A stretch of DNA of 20,431 nucleotides from a virus, in the IMG/VR virus record IMGVR_UViG_3300002835_001385, positions 1-20,431 of that record; one strand, written 5' to 3'. Of the stretch, positions 6,101-20,431 are shown piece by piece; within the stretch, counting starts at the first letter, position 1, and every line of letters starts with the position of its first letter. The translations under genes and the position numbers were made by a program. The notes beneath the pieces are model-generated. The model was given only the letters and a program-made list of their open reading frames with translations, searched no databases and was not told the origin of the DNA.

Positions 6101-7783
6101 GGTGCAAACGATATATTTAGGTGGTATGATGGTGCAACACAATTAGGAGTATTTAAGAATAGTGGTAACGTAGGTATAGGTACAAATTCACCTGTAGCAA
6201 ACCTTCATGTTACAGGAGTTTGTGGGGCAGGGTCAAGTGGTAGTTTTTCAATAGCAGCTCCTGCAAGTGGAGGCGGATGTCCATCATATTTTATAATGGG
6301 GAATAATGATAGTGCAGGAGTAGCAGGTCCTAACGTTATTATGTCAGCTAATAGACAGCTTTTATTTGGATTAGGTAATAGCTTCTCATCATCAACAGGT
6401 GGTACATTTAGTGAATTGATGCGCATAACAAGTGATGGTAACGTAGGTATAGGCACTTCAAGTCCTATATCAAAATTAACAGTTGATAATACTACAAATA
6501 ATATATGGTTATCTATTAATAATGGTCGTAATAGTGGTAGTTCTCCAACATATGGGCTTTCTATTACAACAAGCCACGCTTCAAGTAGTTTAAATGATGT
6601 AAATCACTATGGTGCGTACATTGTACCAAACTTTACTACATCATCATCAAACCTTGGTAGTGTTTATGGTATGTTTATACAACCTACTGAAAGTGGTTTT
6701 TATAATATAGGTTATGGATATGGTCTTTATGTAAAAGCGATAACAGTCAATTCAGGTACTATATCAAATAACTATGCTGCTGTTTTTATGGGAGGTAATG
6801 TTGGCATAGGCACTGTAACACCAAGCTATTTATTAGATGTTCATTCTTCTGCAGGAGGTTCATTTTCTACAATTCGTTCAAACAATGGTTTTACAGGAGC
6901 TTCTGATGGTTCTCAGATTTTACTTGGTAATTCTGCAAACTTTACAAATGCTTACTTTAGATTAAATGGTGGTGGCAATAGTTCACAAGCAGGAATAGGC
7001 TCATTAAATATAGGAGTTACAGAAGCCGTACCTATGGCGTTTTATACGTCAAATTCTGAACGTATGCGCATAACAAGTGGGGGGAATGTTGGTATAGGTT
7101 GCACAGACCCAACTTCTATAAATATTACAGGAGCAAATTACCCTGTATTACAAATAAGAGATGGGGTTGGAGATGGACAACTTAGAGTTGGTGGAGTGGG
7201 TGATGGTACTGTTGGTTTATTGCTTGATTATGATAATTCAGCTTATACTACAACAACTATAAGGTCATTATATGGTGCTACATCAAATGACGCAGCTTTA
7301 AATATTGATGCAGGTTATATAACATTTAGAACAGGGACATCTTTCTCCGAACGTATGCGCATAACAAGTGGGGGGGATGTATTAGTAAACGCAACAGCAA
7401 CCACTCAAGGAGCTAAGTTCTATGTAAATGGGATAGGTGCATTTGGAAGTGTATATGTTGGAGCATTAGGTACAGGTACTGTTTACTCAAATGCAGGATT
7501 CCTAACCAATACCAACCCTTCAGACAGAAGATTAAAAACCAACATCATACCACTTACCTATGGTCTATCTGATATATTAAAACTAAACCCTGTTTCATAT
7601 AATTGGAAAGATGGAACCAATGGTAAACAATTTGGATTCATAGCACAAGAAGTACAAGAAATAATGCCTGATGCAGTTAAAGATGGTGAATATCTTGGAC
7701 TTGAAAAAGATGCTATCTATTCAGCTTTGGTAAATGCAATTAAAGAACTTAAACAAGAATTAGACACTTTAAAAAATAAATAA
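3155..7783 (+). CDS. Giant collagen-like tail/head fibre with S74 intramolecular chaperone, 1542 aa
   Basis: Long receptor-binding-type fibre. Residues 1-51 are an anchor (CDPC, VKYDGPNLP, TCDSLTVALQKI) resembling that of the preceding fibre. Residues 52-344 and about 431-661 are near-perfect Gly-X-Y triplets with X/Y almost only Ser and Thr (GTSGSSGTS type). A beta-rich insert lies between them at 345-430 (GDRYATTSSS ... SSWEVNLDGA). After 665 come beta repeats built on RMRI...GNVGIGT..P units, typical of the shaft before an S74 domain. The C-terminus (1456-1542) is a peptidase S74 / endosialidase chaperone: SDRRLKTNI, then NGKQFGFIAQEVQEIMPD. In that family the domain folds the trimer and cuts itself off just before the Ser of the SD.R.K motif, so the mature fibre probably ends at Pro1455. 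No enzymatic tip domain is recognisable, so binding rather than degradation is the likely role. Confidence 0.9.
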   Translation: MSKQNCDPCNPELTSSNNVKYDGPNLPCTAVHTCDSLTVALQKIDERVCKLGGSSGTSGTSGTSGSSGTSGINGTSGSSGSSGSSGSSSTSGTSGTTGTSGSSGTRGTSGSSGSSGSSGTTGTGGSSGSSGTSATSGTSGTSATSGSSGTTGTSGTSGSTGTSGTSGTSGTSATSGSSGTTGTSGINGTSGSSGSSGSSGTSGTSATSGSSGTTGTSGTSGIEGTSGTSGTTGTSGTTGTSGTSGTSSTSGTSGTSATSGSSGTSGTSATDGTGGTSGSSGSSGTSGTDGTSGTSGTSGSTGTSGSSGSSGTSSTSGTSGTTGTSGSSGTSGTSATSGTSGLSGDRYATTSSSTYTLQAPGGTGTITVGTGLSYSLGQSIIITYSLDAFKHNEAIITAYNPGTGSLSFQVTGQTGTGTYSSWEVNLDGATGGDGSHGTSGTTGTSGTSGTSGTSATSGSSGSSGTTGTSGSSGTSGTTGIDGTSGTSGIDGTSGSSGTSATSGTSGTTGTSGTTGTSGSSGSSGSSGTSGSSGSSGSSGTSAVNGTSGSSGSSGSSGTNGTGGTSGTSGSSGSSGSSGTAGTSGINGTSGTTGTSGSSGTSGTSATSGSSGTTGTSGTTGSSGTSGSSGTSGTSATSGSSGTTGTSGTSATSGTSGSSGTSVSVSGTTNYVVKFTSASTIGNSQIFDNGTQLAINTASPSGFGTQRFLVVGSAASQIARFTDGANGDLVFDFPSTTISRITAQYGTGGVLVFANGTGFTERMRLDASGNLGLGVTPSAWSSSWKAFEFAAAAIAWTGAGANDFSFSTNSFFDSTDSRWEYKSTGDGAARYSMTALTGQHRWFTAPIGTAGAAISFTQVMTLNTSGNLSIGNTNDTYKLDVTGQIRVNGSTNEQLIVDYTIVSGGFTWQSFRLNGTNRYRIFGNTDNSFTLWSDVLSSNVLSIASTGAATFSSSVTANYGGTFIIPSESPASGNVALIAKTSNGANDIFRWYDGATQLGVFKNSGNVGIGTNSPVANLHVTGVCGAGSSGSFSIAAPASGGGCPSYFIMGNNDSAGVAGPNVIMSANRQLLFGLGNSFSSSTGGTFSELMRITSDGNVGIGTSSPISKLTVDNTTNNIWLSINNGRNSGSSPTYGLSITTSHASSSLNDVNHYGAYIVPNFTTSSSNLGSVYGMFIQPTESGFYNIGYGYGLYVKAITVNSGTISNNYAAVFMGGNVGIGTVTPSYLLDVHSSAGGSFSTIRSNNGFTGASDGSQILLGNSANFTNAYFRLNGGGNSSQAGIGSLNIGVTEAVPMAFYTSNSERMRITSGGNVGIGCTDPTSINITGANYPVLQIRDGVGDGQLRVGGVGDGTVGLLLDYDNSAYTTTTIRSLYGATSNDAALNIDAGYITFRTGTSFSERMRITSGGDVLVNATATTQGAKFYVNGIGAFGSVYVGALGTGTVYSNAGFLTNTNPSDRRLKTNIIPLTYGLSDILKLNPVSYNWKDGTNGKQFGFIAQEVQEIMPDAVKDGEYLGLEKDAIYSALVNAIKELKQELDTLKNK
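3308..4186 (+). repeat. Collagen-like Gly-Thr/Ser triplet block 1
   Basis: Encodes about 290 residues in which Gly occurs at every third position (GTS, GSS, GTT, GTG, occasional GIN, GTD, GTA). The peptide is highly regular, but the DNA is scrambled by synonymous codons (AGT, AGC, TCT, TCA, TCC, TCG for Ser; all four Thr and Gly codons), so there is no exact DNA tandem array. It probably forms an extended triple-helical or beta-helical shaft. The composition creates long spurious open frames on both strands. Confidence 0.9.
4187..4444 (+). other. Globular beta-domain insert between collagen-like blocks
   Basis: About 86 residues (345-430 of the giant fibre) without the Gly triplet. They show alternating hydrophobic and polar residues (TLQAPGGTGTITV, LGQSIIITYS, GSLSFQVTGQTGTG, SSWEVNLDG). 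I recall similar units interrupting Gly-triplet shafts in other phage and Bacteroidota proteins, but cannot name a family with certainty. It probably acts as a trimeric beta knot that registers the three chains or forms a lateral display site. Confidence 0.6.
4445..5137 (+). repeat. Collagen-like Gly-Thr/Ser triplet block 2
   Basis: About 230 residues of the same GTS/GSS/GTT triplet pattern, starting after GATGGDGSHG and ending at GTSVSVSG, where the beta-repeat region begins. As in block 1, the codons are heavily varied while the peptide is nearly invariant. Rare non-Ser/Thr positions (GID, GIN, AVN, GTN, TAG) recur at intervals, suggesting larger units of several triplets. Confidence 0.9.
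5429..7390 (+). repeat. RMRI...GNVGIGT shaft repeats in giant fibre
   Basis: At least seven degenerate protein repeats built around (E)RMRI-x-SGGNVGIG-x-x-x-P occur near 5431, 5742, 6164, 6419, 6793, 7058 and 7349, separated by 70-130 residues of beta-rich sequence. Some cores are identical at DNA level: ATGCGCATAACAAGTG at 6419, 7064 and 7355, and GGTAACGTAGGTATAGG at 6164 and 6437. Such units commonly precede S74 domains in phage fibres. Sharing at DNA level points to recent duplication or recombination within the shaft. Confidence 0.75.
7520..7780 (+). other. Peptidase S74 intramolecular chaperone domain with predicted self-cleavage site
   Basis: Residues 1456-1542 of the giant fibre. The motif S1456-D-R-R-L-K1461 marks the family's autocleavage point, with cleavage expected between Pro1455 and Ser1456. 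It is followed by the conserved FGFIAQEVQEIMPD and a C-terminal amphipathic helix (ALVNAIKELKQELDTLKNK) typical of the trimeric chaperone stalk. In characterised members the released domain is not part of the mature virion. Confidence 0.9.
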
Positions 7784-7784
7784 A

Positions 7785-8147
7785 ATGGCAACAACAGTAT
7801 TTGAATGGGTAATCAGCGAATTAAATTGCGCTGTAGAATCAGAAGGTCTACTAGATGTAATCAATATGATACATTGGAGATATAACGCAACACAAGAGCA
7901 TGATGGTAAACTTTATTTTGCAGACACTTATGGTGCATCAAGTGTAGCACAACCAAACCCACAAAACTTCATTCCTTACGCGGATGTAACAGAAGCTGAG
8001 GTTATTGGTTGGCTAGAACAAATACTTCCTGTAGATGCTATGCAATTATCTTTGGAGAACAACATTGCTCTACAGATTAATCCTGTTGAAGTTACACTTC
8101 CATTACCATGGCTTTCAACAACAACCACCACCACCACTACACTATAA
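7785..8147 (+). CDS. Small fibre-associated protein with Thr tail, 120 aa
   Basis: It starts one base after the giant fibre stop (TAAAATG). The body (VFEWVISELNCAVES ... HWRYNATQEHDGKLYF ... FIPYADVTEAEVIGWLEQIL ... LPLPW) resembles a family of ~100-aa proteins of unknown function found beside fibre genes in many environmental phages. I believe it corresponds to a DUF7936-type domain but cannot verify this. The W/Y-rich strand region followed by an acidic amphipathic helix and a terminal LPLPW is the diagnostic pattern. The last ten residues are Ser, eight Thr and Leu (nt 8115-8144), a tail unlike the rest of the protein but like the Thr tracts in the capsid and muzzle genes. Likely role: fibre assembly or tip accessory (inference from position). 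It is the last gene before the terminator. Confidence 0.6.
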   Translation: MATTVFEWVISELNCAVESEGLLDVINMIHWRYNATQEHDGKLYFADTYGASSVAQPNPQNFIPYADVTEAEVIGWLEQILPVDAMQLSLENNIALQINPVEVTLPLPWLSTTTTTTTTL

Positions 8148-8328: not shown

Positions 8329-9579
8329 ATGCCTGAAAATCAATCCCTTCTGCAACAACTGGAGCAAATGCTCCACTGGAAAAAGAGCAAAAAGTTCTAT
8401 GCAGACAAACTAAACATCACAGAGAACGAGGTGGATGAGTTACTGAAGGGGTTGCGAGGGTCAGAAGAAATACAGAATGATGCTGAGATTTCAAACTACA
8501 TTGGAGAGTTAGAAGACCATGTAGTAAGGTTTTTAGAGGATATACAGAAAGGAACAGGTGAGGTGGTATTCAACTCTAAAGATGAAATCAAAAGCTTAGA
8601 TGAGTTAATTGAAAAGTGCAATATTGACACAGAGAAATGGGAGATAACTAAATACGTACAGAACTATTGGGGAAATGGTGAAACTCCTCATTGGCAAGTA
8701 AAAGCATGGTTGGGTAAGAAGAAGGATGAGCAAGTGTTTCAAGATAGCTTCATATCCTTCCTAGAGAACTACCAACCAATATCTCCAGAAGTAATGGCTC
8801 CTAAGTATGCTGAAGGTAAGAAAGATGCTTGCCTAATCATTAACAAACAGGATTCCCATTTAAATAAGTTAGACATAGGAGGAGAGAATGATATAGACCA
8901 TCGCTTTGGTGATTTCATCCAGAGGGTGGAAATAATCCTAAATCAAGCTTCCCTATCTAACAATCTCACAGATATCAAATACATTATTGGTTCTGATGAG
9001 TTCAACAGTGAGTTCACCAATTCAACTACAAAGGGCACTCCCCAACAAAACATCCTTTCATATCATGATGCGTTTCAGGCAATATGTGATCATGAAGTGA
9101 GCGTGATAAACCTGCTCCTTCAGAAAGGAGAAAATGTGGATGTTATATTTGTAGCTGGTAATCATGATGAATATGTAGGATGGCATTTAGCCAGTTGGTT
9201 ACAAACCTACTTTAGAAGCGAAGAGCGTGTGTTCTTTGACATCTCTCCAAGATATAGAAAGTATGTGAGCTATGGTACATCAGCATTAATGTTTAACCAC
9301 GGAGATGCTTTAAAACCTGCAAAGCTTGCTGGCTTGTTCCCTATGGAGTTTAAAACTGAATGGTCAGAGCATGACAACTTCTACATATTCACAGGTGACA
9401 AACACCATGAAATGAGTCTTGATTTCAATGGTATTAAGTTCTATCAACTACCTGCATTCTCTACAGCCAAGAGTTCTTGGGATGATAAGAATGGATACAC
9501 CGTAACCAAGGGTGAGGTGACAGGGTTCTTGATAGATCTCCAAGATGGAATAACAAACATATTCAAACAGTATTTATAA
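8329..9579 (+). CDS. Calcineurin-like metallophosphoesterase, 416 aa
   Basis: The C-terminal ~245 residues carry all five motifs of the two-metal phosphoesterase superfamily in order: D175-x-H177 (KQDSHLNK), G221-S-D223-E, G277-N-H279-D280-E, H324 (FNHGD) and G356-D-K-H359-H360. The second motif has Ser-Asp-Glu, a variant of the usual GDxxD. The first ~170 residues are acidic, mostly helical and begin with a short helix-turn-helix-like stretch (KKSKKFYADKLNITENEVDELLKGL), possibly for DNA or protein binding. Substrate unknown: nuclease, phosphodiesterase and protein phosphatase are all possible. It is the first gene after the terminator/promoter region and overlaps the next start by one base (TAATG), so it is co-expressed with connector genes. 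Crass-like phages often encode a metallophosphatase in this block. The start at 8329 is the first ATG after the promoter-like sequence. Confidence 0.85.
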   Translation: MPENQSLLQQLEQMLHWKKSKKFYADKLNITENEVDELLKGLRGSEEIQNDAEISNYIGELEDHVVRFLEDIQKGTGEVVFNSKDEIKSLDELIEKCNIDTEKWEITKYVQNYWGNGETPHWQVKAWLGKKKDEQVFQDSFISFLENYQPISPEVMAPKYAEGKKDACLIINKQDSHLNKLDIGGENDIDHRFGDFIQRVEIILNQASLSNNLTDIKYIIGSDEFNSEFTNSTTKGTPQQNILSYHDAFQAICDHEVSVINLLLQKGENVDVIFVAGNHDEYVGWHLASWLQTYFRSEERVFFDISPRYRKYVSYGTSALMFNHGDALKPAKLAGLFPMEFKTEWSEHDNFYIFTGDKHHEMSLDFNGIKFYQLPAFSTAKSSWDDKNGYTVTKGEVTGFLIDLQDGITNIFKQYL

Positions 9580-10307
9580 TGTCAACTTTTAGGAAGCTAG
9601 TTTCAGATGTACGTTCTATGCACAAGTTGCTCTCCACGGACAACTTGATCACGGATAGAGCTGTCATGTCTGAAATTAGAAACAATGCCTTCCTCTTGAT
9701 TAAGCGTGAGACTAATCTGAGGAAGTTATGGGCAACCGATACAGTTTTTACCACCATTCCCTGCTTGGAGATGGTGGAAGTTCCTATTTCTGAATGTTGT
9801 GATTATGTAGATCCTTGCACAGTGGCTAGAACAAGATTCAAGCTGCCTAGGATTACAGAGGGTAATTATCAATATGTCATTCAGGGTGTTTATTCAATTA
9901 ACGCTATGAGTGGTCAGGGAAAGAAACTTAAGGAAATAACCATCAACCGATACGTGAACTTGCTCAAGCTTCCTATAATTAAAAATGAGGAATACTATTG
10001 GATTTCTAACGGATATCTGTATGTGAACAATCCACTCTTAAAAGCAATCAGACTTGTTGCTCTTTTCGAGGAAGATGTTCCAAATGAGATAATGTATCCA
10101 GAATGTGGATGCGGAACTCCTAGCTATACACCAGAGCAACTGTGTGTAAATCCTTTAGATAAAGAATCTCCAGTTCCTGGCTATCTAGAAAAGCAGGTGT
10201 TGGAGCTCACTTCTCAGAAGCTTCTCTCTACGTATTTCAAATTGAAGACAGACATCACAAATGATGGAGTTGATGGTCAAGCACCTAACGCTCCAAATTT
10301 GAGATAA
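9579..10307 (+). CDS. Head-tail connector/ring-type structural protein, 242 aa
   Basis: Its position between the metallophosphoesterase and the IHF-like gene, and its pattern, match uncharacterised structural proteins of crAss-like phages that build the collar below the portal. The N-terminal ~50 residues are helical and charged (FRKLVSDVRSMHKLLSTDN, INTD-like turn, NAFLLIKRETNLRKLW). The centre is beta-rich with Cys motifs (PCLEMVEVP, ECCDYVDPC), an IQGVYSINAM strand and ITINRYVNLLKLP. The C-terminal part has GCGTPSY and a helix (LEKQVLELTSQKLLSTYFKL) before a disordered tail. There is no signal peptide or membrane helix. It starts inside the previous stop (TAATG). The assignment to a specific ring is not possible from sequence; structural role likely. 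Confidence 0.65.
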   Translation: MSTFRKLVSDVRSMHKLLSTDNLITDRAVMSEIRNNAFLLIKRETNLRKLWATDTVFTTIPCLEMVEVPISECCDYVDPCTVARTRFKLPRITEGNYQYVIQGVYSINAMSGQGKKLKEITINRYVNLLKLPIIKNEEYYWISNGYLYVNNPLLKAIRLVALFEEDVPNEIMYPECGCGTPSYTPEQLCVNPLDKESPVPGYLEKQVLELTSQKLLSTYFKLKTDITNDGVDGQAPNAPNLR

Positions 10308-10792: not shown

Positions 10793-11764
10793 ATGTCATA
10801 CTATTACAAATATAATTTTATCAGCCCTGCGCCTGTATACGCTACAGTTAAGGAGGAATTCAAAAGCTATTTTGATACAGGAGCAGTTGATGATTTAATG
10901 TTCCCCACCTATCTAGACAAGTGTCTTAGAAAGTTGGGTAGAACAACTTATGTGATTTCTCAGGAAATCCTACACATTAACGACTATCAAGCTAGACTCC
11001 CAGACAACTTCTTTGCTGTGAGAGAGGCTTGGATGTGTACAGCTGTGAATGGTTTCCCTTATCAACAGGCTAACTCATTCTACTCACAGGCTGCTACAGC
11101 TACAACAATTCAGGTGAGCCCTATCACCACAGATTGTCCAATCCCTAGTCCTTGTTGTGGTAATGTAGGATGTGATGGTTCTTGTATGCCTGAACTCATT
11201 CAAACAGTGTACAAGACTAATAATGAAGCAGCAGTTAGCTATCGTAGAGAATACCTATTAAAACCTGGTAACATTTCTGCACAAGGTAACTGTGGTGTAG
11301 ACTATACCAATAACTGGGAGTTCTATGCACAGGCACCTCCTATTAATGAGTTCACTCCTGGTTCCTCTTGGTATGACTCATTTGATATCAGAGACAATAA
11401 GTTTGTCACTAACTTCCGTAATGGTGTGGTGCATCTGTTGTTTTATGCTACAGAATATGATGCTGGTGGAAATCAGTTAATTCCTGACAACTATCGTATT
11501 AGAGAATATGTTGAAGCTTTCATCAAGTATAAGGTGATTGAAACGCTCACTAATCAAGTGAACGATGAGACATACAATCAGCTAGAAAGGAAGATGATGA
11601 ACTACAAACAACAGTCTGAAGAAGCTTTCATCATGGCTGATATTGAGATTAAGAAGCAAGATCCTTGGACTAAGCAACGTAGGATTAAGAATGACTTGAA
11701 CAGATTTAACATGTATGAACTTCCTAATCGTACTAATAGATACGGTTGGAGACGCAATAATTAA
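10793..11764 (+). CDS. P22 gp4-like tail ring (head-completion) protein, 323 aa
   Basis: The N-terminus (YYKYNFISPAPVYATVKEEF, SYFDTGAVDDLMFPTYLDKC, LRKLGRTTY, ARLPDNFFAVREAWMC) is, from memory, a well conserved signature of crAss-like 'tail tubular' P22 gp4-like ring proteins, which connect the portal to the tail. A Cys-rich loop follows (C115, C121, C122, C127, C131), then a beta region (FVTNFRNGVVHLLFYATEYD) and a C-terminal helical segment (YRIREYVEAFIKYKVIETLT ... LERKMMNYKQQSEEAFIMAD) ending in a basic tail with NRFNMYELPNRTNRYGWRRN, another recurrent motif of the group. The gene directly precedes the muzzle gene (5-nt gap), the expected order. High confidence in a connector role, moderate in the exact homology to gp4. 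Confidence 0.75.
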   Translation: MSYYYKYNFISPAPVYATVKEEFKSYFDTGAVDDLMFPTYLDKCLRKLGRTTYVISQEILHINDYQARLPDNFFAVREAWMCTAVNGFPYQQANSFYSQAATATTIQVSPITTDCPIPSPCCGNVGCDGSCMPELIQTVYKTNNEAAVSYRREYLLKPGNISAQGNCGVDYTNNWEFYAQAPPINEFTPGSSWYDSFDIRDNKFVTNFRNGVVHLLFYATEYDAGGNQLIPDNYRIREYVEAFIKYKVIETLTNQVNDETYNQLERKMMNYKQQSEEAFIMADIEIKKQDPWTKQRRIKNDLNRFNMYELPNRTNRYGWRRNN

Positions 11765-11769
11765 TACTA

Positions 11770-14700
11770 ATGGCTGAACAGGAACAAGGCAATATTAGAC
11801 AGGAGTATAACAATGCTACTACAGGTCTTAACATGGACCAAACCCCTAACCAAATTGCAAAGGGGAAACTAACGTATGCAATAAATGCTACTGTTGAAAA
11901 CTATGATGCTAATTCTGTAAACTATCAGAATGAGCCAGGGAACGAACTTTGTGTTACGTTCCCTTCAGGTTTTGTGCTTATAGGTAATCACTTCATCCAA
12001 GAGAAGAACAAACATATATTCTTTATCACTAACCCTGATACAGGAGCTAGTCAGATTGGACAGATGGAGAATAATGATTGCGTATATCGTGTAATTGTAA
12101 ATGCTCCTTGCCTCAACTTCAATACTGGCTACCCCATCCACAAGGTGGCACATAAGATAACTAATTGTACCACAGAGATTTATTGGACAGATGGATTCAA
12201 TCCTAGAAGATATTTGGACATTGACAATATTCCAAAAGTTCTAAAATCTGGAACTCCGTTCTGTGATCCAGAATATACAGACGACCTAGACTGTAATCAA
12301 CTTAAACTTCAACCCAACTTTAATATCCCTCAACTGGAGGTAACTGATGTTACTAGCACAGGTAATCTGATTGCTGGTACATATCAGTTTGCTGCACAAT
12401 ACTCTGATGCTCAGGGTAATCCTTACACGTCCTACTATTCTGTTACCAACCCAACACCTATTGCTGATAAGTTCATTACATCAGTGAACTTCAACTATCC
12501 TGTTGGGAAGTCTATCATCCTCAATATAAGCAATCTTGAGGACACAGGGCTTTACCAGTATTTTAACTTAGCGGTGATTAAGACAGTGAATAACATCACT
12601 TCTGTCGAGCTAGCTGGTACATATTACATCGATGCTGTTCAAAAGGAAATCACATACACTGGTCAGAACGTTACACAAATCAGACTGACTATCAATGATA
12701 TATTTGAGAAGTTCCCTTATTACGACATTGCTCAAGATCTTACAACAGCACAAGATGTCTTGATATGGGACAACCTTACATCTATTGATCGTATTAACTA
12801 CCAAAGCATTGCTAATCAAATTCCTCTGTTATGGGAAAGCTGGAGAATTCCTGCTGACCAAAACTATTCAGATGAGTTGAATGCCACCAATCTCAGAGGT
12901 TATTTGAGAGATGAGGTGTATGCTTTTGAGATAGTGTTCTTGCTTAAGAATGGTAAGCAGACAGATGGATTTCATATTCCTGGTAGAATCAAAGGCGCTA
13001 CAGAGAACTTACAACCTGATGTACCAGATACCAACCCAGACTTTATAGGCGTTCCTGATTACACATCTGGAGGAATAGGATATAGCTCTTATTGGAAAAT
13101 CTACAATACAGGATCTGTTATTGGTACAAGTCCTGGATATTCTCCAGCTCCTGACTACAGAGGTCCTTATCAGTATGGTGAGTTTGGTTATTGGGAATCA
13201 ACAGACACCTACCCATGTAACAAAGATGTGTGGGGCGATCTTGCTGGTCAGCCTATTAGGCACCATAAGTTCCCTGACATCAATGTAAGTCCTGCTTACG
13301 AATCTAAGATATTTACAGGACCTTCAGGTATGGTTCAGGGTAATGATGCTGTGTTCCCTATTGGTGTACAATTAGATGTACAACTAGTGAGCTCACTTAT
13401 TCAGACATCCACTCTTACACCAGAACAGAAAGATGATATTGTAGCATTTAAAATCATTCGTGCTGATCGTGGTACAAACAAGTCTATTGTTGCTAAGGGT
13501 ATCCTTAGAAACGTAAATACGTATGAGAGAGAAGAGGAAACCTACTACTATCCTAACTACCCATACAACGATCTTAACCCAGATCCATTCCTTAATACAA
13601 CTAACAATGCCTACTCACAAATCTGTGATGGGTATAGTGTATTCATAGACACACTTGTTGTAGACCCTGCTGGTGGACCTTCTTTTGCTGAGGTGGAATA
13701 CACTGATTGCAATACGAACAAAACAACAAAGAAGAAATACTTTGCAATTGGTCAATATCCACTTTGCTCAATAGGTAAGCCTACAATCCTTGGTCCTGCA
13801 ACAGGAAGGGTGGGGCTTTCTACATATGAGATATGGACAGCTCAGGTTTGTAATCCAAGTCCTTTTGCATTTGCCAGAGGTGGTAGAATTGAGTGGAACG
13901 ACATCTATACAGGTGTCACTACACAGTGGGTGAATGGATGGCCTACCTCTCCAGTGTATACATTATATGTAGTTCCTGGCACAGGTGGTCCTGTACAAAT
14001 TGAAGGTCCTGGTAATATTTGTTTCACTGGTCCAACACTTGTTACAGGTGCAAATTGTAAAGCTGAGAATCCTCAACCTGGATTTACAGAGAAATACAGA
14101 CAGATATTTAACTCTCCTGAAACTTCTTTTGGACAGCCTTTCTTAGGTGGTGTTCTTAAGCTTGAGAGTGTAATGTTTGGTAGAGGTAAAGGTCACTTTG
14201 TTGAGGTGAGAGATAATGCTAAGTACAAACTCTTAACAGAAGAAGCTCAGCGTGATGCTCTTGAAAGTGCTGAAGAACTAGGTGATGTAACCACACCATT
14301 CAATGCGACTGCTATGTTTACAGCATACCAGGCGTATTTAACCATCTATGTAAATGGCATCACAAGGAAGAACTATGCTTACTCTTTCAACTCCATAGGA
14401 GATTATAACTATGGGGTGGGAGTTCCTGATGATCTAGGGATTAAGCAACGTAACCTTGACATCGCTAGATATTTGATTCCTGGTGTACAGAACGTTGGTG
14501 ATATATACAACATCAACAACTTCCAAAGAGAATCATCTGTCTACCTAAGAACTGACCTAGATAGACCAGGTCTTCCCTTCCCAGACCAAAGCCCTAACAT
14601 GTTGTCTGCAGGAAGTTCAATAGTTACAGACATATCAAGATTCACTATATCAGAAAGAAGCAAGTGTCAAGCTCCTGCTAAGGAAGAAGACATGTCTGTT

Positions 14701-17232
14701 GTTTCTTATTACGCATCTCTTAAGAATGTATTTGTTAACCAATACGGACAAATCTATTCTTACACCACGGTGGACACTGGTTTCCAAGTGCCTGTGGATG
14801 ATGTTACTCCCAATATACAAACAGTGTTTGGTGGTGATACATTCATTAGCAGGTTTGCATTCAAGACCAAGCTTCCATTCTTTATTGACAACCGTGTGAA
14901 TGCTCCTGATGATAGTGATATATTCTATGATGAGATAGGTAACATAGCCTATCCAAAATACTGGCATTCAGCACGTTCTATTCTTAGAGACTACACTATT
15001 ACAAGTGTAGGTGTGTTATCAAACATTATTTCCTACAAGGCTCACAACTTTGACTGTCCTAACAGTCAGTTTGTAGCTCCTGGGCAACCTAAGGATAGCA
15101 ATCCTGGAAGAACATTCTATGATGGATACTTCTACCTATTTGCATACGGTATTCCTAATTTCTATTGTGAGAGCTCTTATAACGTAGACTTACGTCAAGC
15201 TTTCAACGACAGAGAGGGTGACTTCTGGCCTCACGTGAGTACAGGTATTCCTGATGACTGGGTGCAACAAAGTTATGTTCCTATTGTTCAGGATAACACC
15301 TACTTCTATAATGTAACATATTCTAAGCAGAACAAAGAGAATACATTTACAAATCTACCTATTGACTGGAATAGACCTTGCTTCACCTATTATCCTTTCA
15401 GAGCTATCTATTCTGATTCTCAGAACATTGACTCTGATAATAGAGTGAACAGTTGGTTGATTTACAGAGCTGTATCTTATTATGACTTCCCTCAGAACTA
15501 TGGAGATCTTATATCTCTAGATGGAATTCAGAACAAGGCAGTGCTTGCTCGTTTTGAGAACAAGACACTCATGTACAACAACCTCCTTACGATAGATACA
15601 AGTAATCCTCAAGCAGCGTATGTTGGTAATCCTCAGTTCTTTAGATCAGCTCCTCCGATTGATTTCGCAGAAACTGATTTGGGATATGTAGGAACCCAAA
15701 ACAAGATGTTGCTGAAGATTCCACAAGGACAAGTGTCTGTGGATGCTAAGCGTGGTCAGGTATTTTTGATCTCTGGTACACAGGCTGTAGACCTGTCAGG
15801 GTTTGGTTCAGGACTTAATAGGTTCTTTACAGACCACCTGGCATTTGAAATCCTGCGTTACTTCCCAGATGTACCTACAGATAACCACTTCACAGGAATT
15901 GGTCTACATGGTGTATTTGATAGCAAGTATGACAGGGTGCTTATCACTAAGCTTGACTATGTTCCAAAGAGCAAAGATGTTAAATACGATGCTGTAAAGA
16001 GAGAGTTTTATGTTGAAAAGGCATACAAACAAATCCCTTATAACACTACTACTAGTACAACTACCTCTGCTGGTACCACGACTAGTACAACCACATCTGC
16101 TGGCACTACCACTAGTACAACAACATTTGGATCAACTACTACAACAACCACTCTTAAACCAATCACTGTACGTGAGAGAGTATATCTAACAGATGAAGAG
16201 TACTTCTGTAATAAGAGCTGGACAGTGTCTTTCAACTTCAACACTAAGAGTTGGATAAGCTTCCACAGTTATATCCCTAACTGGTATATTGGTGAGAACA
16301 ATTTCTTCTATTCTGGTCTTAATGGATGTTGTGATGACTTTGAAGTGATAGCTGGTGTTCCTGGACCTGTTCCAACCACCACTACTACATCTAGTACATC
16401 TACCACTTCTACAAGCTCAACTACCACTACAACCACTACAAAGAATTGTAACCTTGCGGGAACTGTTGTAGTTACAAGTTGTAACCTTGTAGGAACAGCA
16501 ATAGCAATTGGACCAACTCCACCACCTCCTTGTACAAGACCTGTGAAACTATTGAATGATGTATTCTATACAGGATATAATATCGTATCCCCACCATCTA
16601 ATGTTGTTTCTACAGGAAGTCAATTAGCTGCATGTAACGCTGTTGCCTATCTGAATACATTTGGTGGATCATATGTAAACGTTGTACCTACATTCCTCAC
16701 TATCCAATATCAAGGACTCTACGTTGGATCTAGGGTGTTTGTGACCAATGGTACAAATGATTGTACAACTATTCCTAATGGTTGGTACTTTACAGGAGCT
16801 TCTCAAGCTGTTAACACAGTGTTCCAAGTGGTAGGTGGATTGATTGTATCAATTAATATTTGTCCTACAACCACTACAACAACAAGCACTAGTAGCAGTA
16901 GTACAACAACAACGTCATCTACTAGCACAACAACTAGTACATCGTCTACCACTACCACAACAACTACAGCTATACCTGTAACTACTACCACTACATCTAG
17001 TAGTAGTAGCACAACTACAACAACAACAGGCACACCAACAACAACCACAACTACTACCACTGCTGTACCTCCAACAACTACTACTACTACAAGTTCTAGT
17101 AGCACCAGTACTACTACATCAACTAGTAGCACTAGCACTACATCAACTAGTAGTAGTACAACAACTACAACAACTACAGCTGCACTTAATTGTTCACTTG
17201 CTGGAACAGCTGTTGAAGAATATCCATCATAA
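11770..17232 (+). CDS. crAss-like tail muzzle (P22 gp10-like stabilization) protein, N-terminal and central parts, 1820 aa
   Basis: The N-terminus (TTGLNMDQTPNQIAKGKLTY, AINATVENYD, YQNEPGNELCV) and the NCTTEIYWTDGFNPRRYLD segment are hallmark sequences of crAss-like muzzle/stabilization proteins, which form the distal short tail. Later signatures also fit: NRVNSWLIYRAVSYYDFP, VSVDAKRGQVFLISG, NRFFTDHLAFEILRYFPDVP, GIGLHGVFDSKYDRVLITKL and F1479-C-N-K-S-W with SWISFHSYIPNWYIGENNF. From residue 1426 the conserved sequence is broken by Thr/Ser linkers: 1426-1455 (three 10-aa repeats), 1536-1557 and 1700-1803. A ~140-aa Cys-containing domain lies between the last two, and the protein ends in a short NCSLAGTAV stub. 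The expected muzzle C-terminus is absent here and appears in the gene at 17902. So this is probably one part of a split protein. Confidence 0.85.
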   Translation: MAEQEQGNIRQEYNNATTGLNMDQTPNQIAKGKLTYAINATVENYDANSVNYQNEPGNELCVTFPSGFVLIGNHFIQEKNKHIFFITNPDTGASQIGQMENNDCVYRVIVNAPCLNFNTGYPIHKVAHKITNCTTEIYWTDGFNPRRYLDIDNIPKVLKSGTPFCDPEYTDDLDCNQLKLQPNFNIPQLEVTDVTSTGNLIAGTYQFAAQYSDAQGNPYTSYYSVTNPTPIADKFITSVNFNYPVGKSIILNISNLEDTGLYQYFNLAVIKTVNNITSVELAGTYYIDAVQKEITYTGQNVTQIRLTINDIFEKFPYYDIAQDLTTAQDVLIWDNLTSIDRINYQSIANQIPLLWESWRIPADQNYSDELNATNLRGYLRDEVYAFEIVFLLKNGKQTDGFHIPGRIKGATENLQPDVPDTNPDFIGVPDYTSGGIGYSSYWKIYNTGSVIGTSPGYSPAPDYRGPYQYGEFGYWESTDTYPCNKDVWGDLAGQPIRHHKFPDINVSPAYESKIFTGPSGMVQGNDAVFPIGVQLDVQLVSSLIQTSTLTPEQKDDIVAFKIIRADRGTNKSIVAKGILRNVNTYEREEETYYYPNYPYNDLNPDPFLNTTNNAYSQICDGYSVFIDTLVVDPAGGPSFAEVEYTDCNTNKTTKKKYFAIGQYPLCSIGKPTILGPATGRVGLSTYEIWTAQVCNPSPFAFARGGRIEWNDIYTGVTTQWVNGWPTSPVYTLYVVPGTGGPVQIEGPGNICFTGPTLVTGANCKAENPQPGFTEKYRQIFNSPETSFGQPFLGGVLKLESVMFGRGKGHFVEVRDNAKYKLLTEEAQRDALESAEELGDVTTPFNATAMFTAYQAYLTIYVNGITRKNYAYSFNSIGDYNYGVGVPDDLGIKQRNLDIARYLIPGVQNVGDIYNINNFQRESSVYLRTDLDRPGLPFPDQSPNMLSAGSSIVTDISRFTISERSKCQAPAKEEDMSVVSYYASLKNVFVNQYGQIYSYTTVDTGFQVPVDDVTPNIQTVFGGDTFISRFAFKTKLPFFIDNRVNAPDDSDIFYDEIGNIAYPKYWHSARSILRDYTITSVGVLSNIISYKAHNFDCPNSQFVAPGQPKDSNPGRTFYDGYFYLFAYGIPNFYCESSYNVDLRQAFNDREGDFWPHVSTGIPDDWVQQSYVPIVQDNTYFYNVTYSKQNKENTFTNLPIDWNRPCFTYYPFRAIYSDSQNIDSDNRVNSWLIYRAVSYYDFPQNYGDLISLDGIQNKAVLARFENKTLMYNNLLTIDTSNPQAAYVGNPQFFRSAPPIDFAETDLGYVGTQNKMLLKIPQGQVSVDAKRGQVFLISGTQAVDLSGFGSGLNRFFTDHLAFEILRYFPDVPTDNHFTGIGLHGVFDSKYDRVLITKLDYVPKSKDVKYDAVKREFYVEKAYKQIPYNTTTSTTTSAGTTTSTTTSAGTTTSTTTFGSTTTTTTLKPITVRERVYLTDEEYFCNKSWTVSFNFNTKSWISFHSYIPNWYIGENNFFYSGLNGCCDDFEVIAGVPGPVPTTTTTSSTSTTSTSSTTTTTTTKNCNLAGTVVVTSCNLVGTAIAIGPTPPPPCTRPVKLLNDVFYTGYNIVSPPSNVVSTGSQLAACNAVAYLNTFGGSYVNVVPTFLTIQYQGLYVGSRVFVTNGTNDCTTIPNGWYFTGASQAVNTVFQVVGGLIVSINICPTTTTTTSTSSSSTTTTSSTSTTTSTSSTTTTTTTAIPVTTTTTSSSSSTTTTTTGTPTTTTTTTTAVPPTTTTTTSSSSTSTTTSTSSTSTTSTSSSTTTTTTTAALNCSLAGTAVEEYPS
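16045..16134 (+). repeat. Three tandem 30-nt repeats (TTTSTTTSAG) in muzzle gene
   Basis: Units at 16045-16074, 16075-16104 and 16105-16134 encode TTTSTTTSAG, TTTSTTTSAG and TTTSTTTFGS. They share an ACTAGTACAAC core with synonymous differences, and are followed by six more Thr codons. The array interrupts conserved muzzle sequence just before the segment leading to the FCNKSW motif. Confidence 0.85.
16375..16440 (+). repeat. Thr/Ser linker 2 in muzzle gene
   Basis: Twenty-two codons, all Thr or Ser, placed between the conserved SWISFHSY segment with its following CCDDFEVIAG and the Cys-containing inserted domain that begins KNCNLAGTVVV. Confidence 0.8.
16867..17178 (+). repeat. Long Thr/Ser linker 3 near muzzle gene end
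   Basis: About 104 codons of Thr and Ser, broken only by short spacers (AIPV, GTP, AVPP). The DNA mixes ACA, ACT, ACC with AGT, AGC and TCT, and is rich in CTAGT and ACAACA words. The same composition gives a Val-rich frame on the other strand, which is an artefact. It ends before NCSLAGTAVEEYPS and the stop codon. Confidence 0.85.
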
Positions 17233-17251
17233 CTTTTAAATATTATATACA

Positions 17252-17890
17252 ATGACAGTCTTAATAACGTTAACAACAGCTGGGGCAGACACAGGTCCTT
17301 TTAATCTCTACTCAAATGTAGATGGTTATGTTTCAGCATTTGAAACAGGGGTGTCTAAGGCAGCTCTCCAAGCTGGTTATTCATCTGCACTTGTTCCTAA
17401 TGGTACAACAACCATAAGAATAAAGTCTACGGGCACTTGTGTAAACTACATAGATGTTACAGTGGTTACAACTACTACCACTACTTCTAGTACTTCTAGT
17501 ACAACAACATCTACTTCTAGCACCACAACAACGTCTACTTCTAGTACCACAACAACCACTTCTAGTACTGCAGCACCTACTCAGTTGTTTGTTTATGCAA
17601 AGTATATAAATTCTCCATCTGCTGGTAATTTACAATTTAGTATAAACTCAGGACCAAATTTCAATGCTGGTGCTGTACCAACATCATCTTGTGATTATAT
17701 GTTTACAATAAGTGGAATCACTGCAGGAGATAGCATCACATTTACTGACTCAAACACTCAGGCAATTGCAGGAAGTACATCTGTTTGTCCTTCAGGGCCT
17801 GGTGGATTTGGCTGTACATACAACTACTCTGTATTAGTGTCTGGTCCACAAACTGCATACATCTCAGTTGACGGAGCTAACGCTTGCTAA
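17252..17890 (+). CDS. Modular tail-associated display protein, 212 aa
   Basis: Starts 19 nt after the muzzle stop. Three parts: residues 1-70, a beta-type domain with TGPF (14-17), TGVSK (32-36) and STGTC (59-63), which recurs at the start of the next gene; residues 73-106, a Thr/Ser linker; residues 107-212, a second beta-type domain with paired Cys (SSCDYMFTISGITAGDSITF, VCPSGPGGFGCTY, SVDGANAC), resembling an Ig-like or lectin-like fold. No signal peptide, so it is a cytoplasmically made virion part rather than a secreted protein. It sits between two pieces of what looks like one ancestral muzzle protein, suggesting it attaches to the muzzle through the shared N-terminal domain and displays its C-terminal domain. 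No known family identified. Confidence 0.55.
   Translation: MTVLITLTTAGADTGPFNLYSNVDGYVSAFETGVSKAALQAGYSSALVPNGTTTIRIKSTGTCVNYIDVTVVTTTTTTSSTSSTTTSTSSTTTTSTSSTTTTTSSTAAPTQLFVYAKYINSPSAGNLQFSINSGPNFNAGAVPTSSCDYMFTISGITAGDSITFTDSNTQAIAGSTSVCPSGPGGFGCTYNYSVLVSGPQTAYISVDGANAC
17468..17569 (+). repeat. Thr/Ser linker in 212-aa protein
   Basis: Thirty-four Thr/Ser codons with a repeating ACTTCTAG-containing unit (24-nt periodicity in places, encoding TTSTSSTT). It links two beta-type domains, and its composition is the same as in the muzzle linkers. Confidence 0.8.
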
Positions 17891-17901
17891 AATAAATAAG
17901 A

Positions 17902-18768
17902 ATGCCTAAGACAATCATCATAAAATTAACTAGCTCAGGACCTACAACAGGACCTTTTACAATCATTGACCAACTTGGAAACACTCTAGCAACGGGTGTT
18001 TCCAAGGGGGACTTGATTTCTGGGGTGAGCTATGTTGTAGATGATGCTGTTAATGTCATCACTGTAGAGTCTACAGGTAAGTGTAAGAGTAAGAAAAACT
18101 TCCCTGTCACTACAGTTAATCCCGTGAGTTTAGCAGCTACCACGTATAAACAAATATCAACTGCTTGTATCTGGAGGCACCTGAAGAATCCAGTGGTGTA
18201 CAACTACTTCTATGGAAACATAGAACCTTACATCATTGAGTATCCTTTTGCCTATCAGTACCAGGATGAAATCTTACAGAGTGTACAGGATTACACCAAG
18301 GCATATAGATACTTCCCTGATCCAGATGGTATATCAGATGACAACCGTAAAATAGAAACCGACAATGCTTGGTTTAATAAGGCTGTCCTTTACAATGGTC
18401 AACAGAGTACAGGTGTGCTTGAGTTGGTTCCTAAACCAATCAACAACCTCAAGGACTACTTAAAGTATCCTATATACAACACTGATAGTAAGACAATTAC
18501 ATTCACTAAGAGTGATAACTTCTACCAGTATAATACATTCTGGTCATTGGTAAAAGACAAACAACTACCTCTCTTCATACGCACGTGCGAGTCTCTGTCT
18601 TTAGATAAGGTGGTGAATCAGGTGAATATGGATTATGGTAAGAGATCCTTCAAGAAGGAACCTCTACGTGCTAAGGAATTAAAGGTGCGACACATCCTAG
18701 ATAACCGTAGCGATGCACACTTAGTATCACAGTTTATTTACACACCTGCTCAAATCTCTTACAAGTAA
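17902..18768 (+). CDS. Split muzzle C-terminal part fused to TGPF/GVSK domain, 288 aa
   Basis: Residues 1-70 repeat the domain at the start of the previous protein: TGPF (16-19), TGVSK (31-35), STGKC (57-61). From about residue 82 the sequence changes: STACIWRHLKNPVVYNYFYG, then IEPYIIEYPF, NAWFNKAVLYNGQQSTGVLE, YNTFWSLVKDKQLPLFIRTC and KELKVRHILDNR. This resembles the C-terminal domain of crAss-like muzzle proteins, which normally follows the SWISFHSY...NNFF segment in the same chain (recalled, not searched). The missing end of the 1820-aa protein therefore seems to be encoded here as a separate gene with its own ATG, 11 nt after the previous stop. It would have to assemble with the main muzzle in trans. 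Alternatives: an independent tail-tip protein, or joining by recoding, for which no slippery site is evident. Confidence 0.6.
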   Translation: MPKTIIIKLTSSGPTTGPFTIIDQLGNTLATGVSKGDLISGVSYVVDDAVNVITVESTGKCKSKKNFPVTTVNPVSLAATTYKQISTACIWRHLKNPVVYNYFYGNIEPYIIEYPFAYQYQDEILQSVQDYTKAYRYFPDPDGISDDNRKIETDNAWFNKAVLYNGQQSTGVLELVPKPINNLKDYLKYPIYNTDSKTITFTKSDNFYQYNTFWSLVKDKQLPLFIRTCESLSLDKVVNQVNMDYGKRSFKKEPLRAKELKVRHILDNRSDAHLVSQFIYTPAQISYK

Positions 18769-20431
18769 TGAACAACTGGCTAGATAAATATGAACAAGGA
18801 GGAATGGTCTTAAAACAAAAGACCAAGGATAACTATGGAAAGAAAGCTAACCCAAACAATCCTGATGTATCACTTCCTCCAGAATTCAAAGGATTGGCAT
18901 ACAACACTAAGGGACGTAACTATAGTCCTGCATGGGGTGGACAGTTTGAGAATGGTGGATATGTAGCTCAAAAGGGTAAATCTATTCCTACAACAGCAGA
19001 TAGTGTACGTTTGTTTAATTCTCAAATGGCTCTCAACAAGTTTTATGACAATGAGATGAAAGCTGGAAAAATTAGAAAATTTCCAAGAAGTTCATATTCA
19101 AGTGCTGATGTGTCATATAATTTTTCTCCTAGTTCGTTAAAACGGCTTAATGAAGAAAACTTACAATTTTATCGTGAAAAAATAAAAGAGAGAAATACCT
19201 TTAGAGGTAGAGGTATTTATGATGAAAATTACGCAGAATATTTTAATTTAAGTCCTGAAAAAGTTCGTGAACTAGAAAATAAAGGATTAGCTCAGACAAA
19301 AGGTAATTCTGAATATCAACAATATTATAGAGATCTTATAACTCCAATGCAAAACTTAGCAAGTCCTTTTGCATTAGTTGATTCAAGAATACGTCCACAA
19401 GGACAAATAAGTTATGGTCCAATAATAGATGGTACTAATAAAAATGTCTATCCAGGAGGAAGCGTTTCAGTATTTGATTATGACCCTCTTGCTATTAAAC
19501 CTTATCACATGAGAACTGATAAGGAAAAGATAGAGTGGGAAAAGAAGTATGGTAAAAAAACTACCACTGAGAAATCAAAAACTGAACCAGAAAAGAAAAA
19601 GACTCCAGTAACTAAAAAATCTGAAGAAACTAAACCAGCACCATATACTCCTAAAGGAAGTAAGAAGTATATAGTAAATGGAATAGAGGTTAGTGAAGAA
19701 GACTTCTTAGGTACAGGTAGTACAACTGGTGGTAGCAAAAGAATTATATATAGTACACCAAAACTAAAAGATCGTAAAGTTCTTCGTTTAGATGGAACTC
19801 CTGAAACAGACCCAGAGAAGATTCGTAAGGCTATGCGTGCACAGGAAAAGGATGATGAGTTTCAAGATGGTGGTAACTTGATGCCAGCTATGGCTGGAGC
19901 TAACCAAACTATGCCTATGTATCAAATGGGTGGTAGTATTCCAGGTGCTGTAGGATTCACGTACGCACGTACAGTTGGAGCTGCTCCTAGTAACGGTCCT
20001 TATGCTAAGAAGACAAAGGCTAGTGCACAGAATGGTATGGAGATGAAATACTATCAGGAAGGGCTAGACTTCAAGCCTAAGACCATTAGTAAGAATGGTG
20101 GTTGGTTAGATAAATTTGATACAGCTCAGGATGGAAAATTTATGTCCAATCTTATATCTAAGGAGGAGAATAAAAACAGAGGTGATATAGCATCCTACTT
20201 TCCTCAAATACAAAGGATGAAGGATGAACCTAAGATAAAGGAGGTAATTGTTAAAGCTGATCAGAAAAGACAAAAACAAATACTTGCAGAGGCAGTTGCT
20301 ATAGGTAATAAAAACAGAACCACTGTTAAACAAGACAATAGAACATCTAGAGAGAAAAAGATTGCTGAACAAGAGTTATTAAATCTTAAGAGAGATGAAG
20401 CTTTAAGAAATTCTCCTCTTGCTCAAACAAT
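18768..20431 (+). CDS. Lys-rich Gly-Gly-motif protein, probable virion cargo (open at right edge)
   Basis: The frame begins at an ATG overlapping the previous stop by one base (TAATG) and stays open to the window end (554 codons), so the C-terminus is missing. The first residues, NNWLDKYEQGGMV, recur as NGGWLDKFDTAQDG at about 20095-20136. Further short [NDM]-G-G motifs (FENGGY, QDGGN, QMGGS, AQNGM) are scattered through it. A Lys/Glu/Thr/Pro-rich low-complexity stretch lies near 19550-19665 (KKTTTEKSKTEPEKKKTPV). No transmembrane helix or catalytic motif is visible. In crAss-like phages very large proteins encoded just after the muzzle are packaged as cargo and ejected; place, charge and repeated short motifs fit this, but it is inference. 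A muralytic or cleavage-site function for the GG motifs is possible but unsupported. Confidence 0.55.
   Translation, partial: MNNWLDKYEQGGMVLKQKTKDNYGKKANPNNPDVSLPPEFKGLAYNTKGRNYSPAWGGQFENGGYVAQKGKSIPTTADSVRLFNSQMALNKFYDNEMKAGKIRKFPRSSYSSADVSYNFSPSSLKRLNEENLQFYREKIKERNTFRGRGIYDENYAEYFNLSPEKVRELENKGLAQTKGNSEYQQYYRDLITPMQNLASPFALVDSRIRPQGQISYGPIIDGTNKNVYPGGSVSVFDYDPLAIKPYHMRTDKEKIEWEKKYGKKTTTEKSKTEPEKKKTPVTKKSEETKPAPYTPKGSKKYIVNGIEVSEEDFLGTGSTTGGSKRIIYSTPKLKDRKVLRLDGTPETDPEKIRKAMRAQEKDDEFQDGGNLMPAMAGANQTMPMYQMGGSIPGAVGFTYARTVGAAPSNGPYAKKTKASAQNGMEMKYYQEGLDFKPKTISKNGGWLDKFDTAQDGKFMSNLISKEENKNRGDIASYFPQIQRMKDEPKIKEVIVKADQKRQKQILAEAVAIGNKNRTTVKQDNRTSREKKIAEQELLNLKRDEALRNSPLAQT

Follow-up and report, generated by a model that had tools for sequence, protein, structure and literature searches.

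A crAss-type tail muzzle encoded on separate chains, with probable disulfide links and exchangeable display modules at the break

The muzzle of phage crAss001 is a hexamer at the tail tip that acts as a gate, and the authors of its structure propose that its crass domain contacts the cell (PMC10172136). Disulfide bonds stabilise the tail barrel and fibre hubs of the same phage, in a passage that is silent on the muzzle (PMC10172136), and insertions in the regions of the crass and IG2 domains make muzzles vary in length (Bayfield et al.). The crAss001 muzzle, gp44 (PDB 7QOK, 7QOL; PF25731/PF25729), is one chain, as are the muzzles of Cellulophaga phage phi4:1 (gp042, listed in its record as a virion protein by tandem mass spectrometry) and Leptolyngbya phage Lbo-JY46. 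Here we analyse the window, a 20.4-kb virus record with crAss-type tail genes (IMG/VR IMGVR_UViG_3300002835_001385, all 20,431 nucleotides). Its muzzle gene adjoins the tail ring proteins, with rings 1 and 2 upstream, and its place after ring protein 1 and its N-terminal family match are those of gp44. By sequence homology, the protein encoded at 11770–17232 is a crAss-type muzzle without its last ∼200 residues, which sit in a separate gene at 17902–18768 behind a new N-terminal domain, the N-cap. The C-terminal domain (CTD) does not continue the same chain, and the window protein is thus a muzzle split in two rather than the usual form. Where gp44 has a short turn, the window has two chain ends, an N-cap and modules on Thr/Ser linkers. 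We propose that gene fission produced a disulfide-stapled muzzle of separate chains with swappable tail-tip display modules at the break, a reading to which we assign a probability of roughly 0.82.

Family matches divide the muzzle between the two genes. The core chain matches PF25731 (crAss_MUZ; E 5.4e-28, 98.1 bits, curated cut-off 27), phrog_37948 (6.3e-109) and, at its N-terminal side, phrog_15100 (12–416 of 1783). The opposite, C-terminal end of phrog_15100 is matched by the third gene (1587–1776 of 1783, E 2.4e-10). The muzzle of Flavobacterium phage Fpv1 is a single protein of 1783 amino acids (aa), the same length as phrog_15100, with PF25729 (crAss_MUZ_C) at 1597–1706 in Pfam. From 80 loci we derived profiles of the core (window residues 861–1424), the SW segment (in which SWISFHSY starts at core-chain residue 1494), the CTD (third-gene residues 88–288) and the N-cap. 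A single open reading frame (ORF) holds core, SW and CTD in Lbo-JY46, FpV4, Fpv1, csAssE-Sib and MT837925, with the CTD right after SW; in Lbo-JY46, for example, SW at 1409–1457 is followed by the CTD at 1462–1652. Cellulophaga phages phi4:1 (SW 2052–2100, CTD from 2103) and phi17:2 have the same single-ORF order, at a core identity to the window of 28% for phi4:1 and 34% for Lbo-JY46. The cultured relatives found have mostly Flavobacterium or Cellulophaga as hosts, with Leptolyngbya recorded for one. The gap between SW and CTD is at most 14 residues in 27 of 27 distinct intact relatives and at most 11 in seven found later. In gp44 the SW profile maps to 1191–1217 and the CTD start to ∼1244–1281 (joint SW–CTD profile E 1.9e-8). 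A PDB sequence search gave no match for the core or third-gene chain, and the CTD profile gave chance-like matches only. The initial annotation, made from the window alone, had described an 1820-aa chain with muzzle signatures and two genes after it (here 212 and 288 aa), and had read the third gene as the continuation of the first; both points hold, and the C-terminal part of the third gene maps right after SWISFHSY, as it had anticipated. It had named two outcomes that would speak against it, a natural muzzle end at SWISFHSY and an unrelated third gene. Relatives whose chain ends there carry the CTD in the gene just downstream, and the third gene is homologous to the muzzle end.

The split is widespread among relatives. 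Loci were fetched by similarity to CTDs, at most 80 per scan, with the whole third gene as the first query, so the split and intact counts below are not a census or population frequencies. All 80 loci of the first scan had the core on one ORF and the CTD on another. We distinguish a break between SW and CTD (S1), breaks on both sides of SW (S2), a break between core and SW with SW and CTD joined (S3), and the intact single chain. Among 245 loci, 183 were S1, 25 S2, three S3 and 32 intact, with no core found in two; counted as 163 distinct CTDs these were 113, 19, two, 27 and two. A later set of 82 loci (69 S1, three S2, 10 intact) added 38 distinct CTDs (30, one and seven). In total, 165 of 201 distinct CTDs are on separate genes (163 S1/S2, two S3), 34 are intact and two unclassified; the three-chain S2 form accounts for 20 of the 201. 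The N-cap precedes the CTD in all S1/S2 loci (208/208 and 72/72) and in no intact locus (0/32 and 0/10, together 0/42). It is likewise absent from the three S3 loci, distant relatives (L130, L133 and L138) in which the second chain starts MACNCPNINC. Stop reassignment was considered for these three and rejected: each junction has a TAA stop and a new Met after it, and we keep S3 as a real third break type. In two loci, L049 and L050, a 75-aa ORF without an N-cap (MIKYLKNENAV...) lies between the chains ahead of the CTD gene. Among bacterial genomes (GTDB contigs), 95 pattern matches included no true relative. We found no earlier report of a split muzzle in the literature searched, which left out most subscription papers.

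Phylogenetic analysis places the break in the history of the family. In a quick IQ-TREE analysis of core plus CTD from 102 representatives, all 76 S1/S2 rows fall in one clade (Shimodaira–Hasegawa-like approximate likelihood ratio support 100) nested in intact lineages, and the nearest relatives of this clade are all intact (L112/L169, then L106, L098 and L089). A whole clade shares the split, which is not an oddity of the window phage. Within this clade the S2 state changes six to seven times on the trees, and starred branches force four to five of these events, each a gain or a loss. CTD and core distances are moderately correlated (r 0.49), and 39 of 2850 pairs are discordant. This is only suggestive of CTD reassortment between phages, and since the CTD DNA of discordant loci is 79–87% identical to that of L001, any such reassortment was not recent.

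Structure models locate the break within the fold. We modelled the intact relative L112 (799 aa); the model has a mean predicted local distance difference test score (pLDDT) of 59.5, mostly 76–92 by blocks of ten from residue 451, with weak blocks at 611–630 (44–53) and two others that score 58–64. Its C-terminal half aligns with gp44 residues 1026–1371 (7qol_P; Z 16.1, root-mean-square deviation 5.0 over 326 residues), a fold match that rests on this intact relative and not on the split chains. Matches to the T7/P22-type nozzles of P22 (gp10), SU10 and VP1 are weaker (Z 8–11); these share the propeller and ring-joining fold, lack a crass domain and are one chain in these entries. At the site of the window break the L112 model forms a tight hairpin, FYSGVNI-LG-SSSMWRH (pLDDT 72–78 by blocks), and the S2 break was placed by inspection at a second hairpin, KFYV-GT-TEIQL. 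Plain-propeller matches mostly stop near L112 residue 614–624, just past the break, from which we infer that the CTD chain would supply the last propeller strand. In the model, then, the window break is the tip of a β hairpin in the last propeller blade, and the S2 break the tip of another. The third gene modelled alone gave a good N-cap (84–93 by blocks) and a poor CTD (33–74), as expected of half a fold; a thin alignment could also explain it. The hairpin between core and SW (hairpin A) also accepts insertions in single chains: five of 27 distinct intact relatives have inserts of 165–345 aa there, and phi4:1 has ∼300 extra residues at hairpin A and none at hairpin B, the site of the window break.

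Cysteines on either side of the break vary together. Past its hairpin strand, the core chain carries CC, a lone C or, in two cases, no Cys. A Cys two residues before the first CTD Trp (Cys89) occurs if and only if the core chain has CC (86 and 50 of 136 distinct junctions, none mixed; extended to 165 distinct combinations, 107/107 with CC against 0/58 without). Likewise, a Cys after the hairpin and N-cap Cys61 are both present in 163 combinations and both absent in two (L243 and L274), again with none mixed. A third pair, the SW-strand Cys (YFC) and CTD Cys229, agrees in 101 of 102 representatives by an alignment-based count. Both residues are present in 76 of 76 S1/S2 representatives and neither in two S3 representatives, and the 24 single-chain representatives divide into 10 with both, 13 with neither and one discordant (L093). 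At the exact position, 14 of 35 distinct intact proteins have both, 18 neither and three Cys229 only; in those three the SW Cys lies two residues later, as it does in L093 and L094, which lack Cys229. Such covariation across chains points to interchain disulfides. Because the third pair also occurs in intact proteins, it looks like an old bond turned interchain, and the first two look new; which of Cys1520 and Cys1521 would pair with Cys61 and which with Cys89 is a tentative assignment.

The open end of the core chain carries variable sequence. Tails past SW on the core or SW chain differ widely in length, with a minimum of 4 aa and a median of 239 aa over 132 distinct tails; the longest, at 1676 aa far over the median, belongs to one split locus. 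Of these 132 split tails, 129 contain a run of at least seven Thr/Ser, which none of 32 intact loci has. Among 189 close pairs, picked by core identity of at least 85% and CTD identity of at least 90%, mean identity is 92% in the core, 95% in the CTD, 95% in SW and 87% in the N-cap, against 51% in the tail; in one pair (L210/L218) the core is 100%, the CTD 98% and the tail 43% identical. The idea in the initial annotation of gene fission with swappable modules at the break finds support. Modules of at least 35 aa (320) form 68 families, 37 of them singletons; one of the 68 is the N-cap itself and another the CTD of S3 loci. In eight of eight hand-picked pairs similarity breaks off on the left within Thr/Ser linkers or CxLxGTA-like repeats; linkers make up 24% of tail residues. 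Recombination in the linkers would be a plausible mechanism. A Pfam scan of 10 stretches matched two, both to PF09603 (Fib_succ_major, FISUMP), and nothing in the other eight. The two are terminal domains on Thr/Ser linkers, in core chains of three-chain muzzles (L193:4801–6174 and L215:4801–6198). A comparison of the window modules with the other window ORFs gave no second copy.

The N-cap also occurs outside the CTD chain. The first domains of the middle and third genes are related (hhalign profile–profile probability 98.8, E 5.6e-17), as the initial annotation had supposed; pairwise BLASTP of the two window N-caps gave nothing in one run and E 0.012 only in another. A middle ORF of at least 80 aa is present in 24 of 133 distinct split relatives, and 23 of 23 distinct middle genes of that size start with an N-cap. 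The window middle gene matches no muzzle family in PHROG or Pfam and nothing among the phage records. We read it as an extra N-cap display protein and not part of the muzzle. The earlier picture of one muzzle over three genes therefore stands for the core and CTD genes, and the number of muzzle genes in the window falls to two. The gene-3 N-cap profile gave 282 matches, 209 on CTD chains and 73 on other genes, none internal; of the 73, 39 sit between the two muzzle chains and the other 34 ahead of the core gene. These upstream genes (L077, L035, L026 and others) encode small N-cap-led proteins, often Thr-linked, that form a display-protein family. With the N-cap fold, Foldseek found nothing that reached E 0.001, and its best rows were mixed, including immunoglobulin-like folds.

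These observations suggest the following model. Gene fission broke the muzzle of a crAss-type phage at a β-hairpin tip in the last propeller blade, and the core and CTD chains would co-fold to restore the original hexameric tail tip. The chains and the N-cap are probably linked by three pairs of cysteines, of which one is inherited and two are new. At a single place on the surface the break leaves a pair of free ends. That of the core chain bears Thr/Ser linkers and modules, which would be exchanged by recombination in the linker repeats, and the new start of the second chain bears the N-cap, a domain that also heads display proteins of their own, the middle gene among them. Because the modules hang on free ends, surface modules could change with the gate fold undisturbed. 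Of these elements, the sequences themselves establish the fission, where it lies and how far it extends through the clade, the selection on both pieces, the covarying cysteines and the turnover of modules; the others are proposals.

Several points weigh against this model. Co-assembly of the chains in the virion and the disulfides themselves are what we infer from sequence, and that the modules bind host surfaces is likewise a conjecture. The AlphaFold models are only moderate (mean pLDDT 63.4 for the third gene, 59.5 for L112), and the window third gene reached no Pfam family in a Pfam scan, including PF25729. L093 breaks the rule that joins the SW Cys to Cys229. Corrected for the tree, the cysteine test retains four independent pairs, four of four in the same direction (p 0.125), and the third pair three (median p 0.25), which makes the covariation suggestive and not conclusive; recombination could also carry neighbouring sites together. 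Moreover, L255 and L256, two intact loci found later, are placed inside or next to the split clade and have a 7-residue CTD insertion in common with the split forms. Given their placement, and since a tree that keeps the split forms together is not rejected (approximately unbiased test, p 0.18), refusion, repeated fission and pre-fission lineages are all compatible with the tree. The L255 junction, SGLNDCDGFTSTQQSATSCMWRHL, resembles a mix of both open ends and would suit refusion, in a single assembly where the gene reaches the contig edge. In the L256 genome an N-cap gene lies upstream of the intact muzzle, plausibly the state before capture.

One alternative is that both pieces end up in a single chain, whether through programmed frameshifting, readthrough of a stop, an intron or a split intein. 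The core and CTD genes of the window share a reading frame, and recoded stops are described in crAss phages, including a muzzle gene of a zeta crAss phage. Yet the frame of the CTD chain relative to the upstream SW chain is 0, 1 and 2 in 30, 50 and 53 of 133 distinct junctions, a mix that led us to reject programmed frameshifting or readthrough, and in all 133 the CTD chain has an ATG of its own, at the N-cap. Four inspected S2 junctions have TAA or TAG as the stop and three S3 junctions have TAA, and most relatives have long coding tails at both open ends. No Rfam family was found in the window at gathering scores, and a Pfam scan of the window chains, made with no intein-specific tool, gave no intein-type domain. 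We regard a single product as highly improbable. Another proposal treats the CTD gene as a remnant, or gives it a new role outside a muzzle that functions without it. The modest distance correlation with its discordant pairs would suit such decoupling, and loci found through the CTD would let cores that had lost it escape. Against this, core and CTD are both under purifying selection: in 14 hand-picked pairs the ratio of nonsynonymous to synonymous substitution (dN/dS) is 0.033–0.122 for the CTD in all 14, and 0.024–0.131 for the core in 13, with 0.436 in one pair of very low dS (N-cap, 0 to 0.38 where defined). Sixteen records (56–115 kb, possibly incomplete; 14 split) each contain a single core and a single full CTD, and extra matches to the gene-3 profile there are N-cap genes. 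The covarying cysteines, and the fused CTD that L255 and L256 keep in or beside the clade, argue the same way, and we consider a remnant very unlikely. An assembly or sequencing artefact has a negligible chance: every split record found is a metagenome contig (IMG/VR), yet the 165 distinct split CTDs come from many metagenomes, with the start codon kept throughout and selection on both sides.

The strongest competitor accepts that the chains co-assemble and takes the variable tails for decoys, glycan carriers or decorations that stick to mucus or polysaccharide, and not for receptor-binding parts. The module families are mostly without known function, and the Thr/Ser linkers could be glycosylated. 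Receptor-binding parts at tail tips show fast exchange, and the rapid exchange seen here is typical of them; FISUMP-type domains end two core tails and may point the same way. We judge this alternative unlikely but worth keeping in view. Going beyond the fission model, the break might be an evolved device: hairpin-tip breaks would give free ends for modules of any length, new interchain disulfides, one to a recruited start domain, would replace the lost peptide bond, and the stapled break may be a latch that senses pull on the modules and helps to open the gate. We offer this tentatively, at somewhat less than even odds. If the fission model is true, it would show how a phage frees its tail tip for fast change with the gate untouched. 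It also gives a model, open to test, of how tail tips diversify in uncultured crAss relatives. Gene calls will misannotate such split muzzles, which also offer a natural split-protein display scaffold.

Table 1. Positions of the muzzle genes, their parts and the adjoining ring genes in the window.
Feature	Position	Strand	Evidence
Tail ring protein 2	9579..10307	+	PF25702, 8.1e-19
Tail ring protein 1, directly 5′ of muzzle core	10793..11764	+	PF24228, 6.9e-11
Muzzle core chain, 1820 aa: muzzle regions through SW segment, then display tail	11770..17232	+	PF25731 5.4e-28, phrog_37948 6.3e-109, phrog_15100
Thr/Ser linker in hairpin A (core to SW); second chain break of relatives falls here	16042..16152	+	
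SW segment, residues 1464–1518, terminal hairpin strand FFYSGLN, Cys1480 at 16207–16209	16159..16323	+	
Cys1520–Cys1521, just past hairpin strand; covary with third-gene Cys61 and Cys89	16327..16332	+	
Core C-terminal display tail: Thr/Ser linkers, 138-aa module (16447–16860), linkers, short NCSLAGTAV motif	16333..17229	+	Module family of 94 modules in 68 loci; tails differ in close relatives
Middle gene, 212 aa: N-cap domain (17252–17458), linker, 104-aa module (17576–17887)	17252..17890	+	
Third gene, 288 aa	17902..18768	+	
N-cap domain of third gene, residues 1–76, Cys61 at 18082–18084	17902..18129	+	hhalign to middle-gene domain E 5.6e-17; pLDDT 84–93 by blocks of ten
Muzzle CTD, third-gene residues 88–288: probable last propeller strand and C-terminal part; Cys89 at 18166–18168, Cys229 at 18586–18588	18163..18765	+	

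Downstream of the third gene, 18768–20429 encodes a protein of at least 554 aa with a marginal phrog_25095 match only (E 0.0022). Upstream, an exonuclease or phosphoesterase-like gene (8329–9579, phrog_704) lies among structural genes, and 2039–3142 has a weak, sub-cut-off match to the Gp10_C baseplate domain (PF21939). The genes at 1–1008 and 7785–8147, the latter DUF7936 (PF25590), end in Thr/Ser-rich runs like the muzzle tail. Between them, 3155–7783 encodes a 1542-aa protein with long GTSGSSG collagen-like repeats (PF01391) and a terminal Peptidase_S74 chaperone domain (PF13884), a probable tail fibre.

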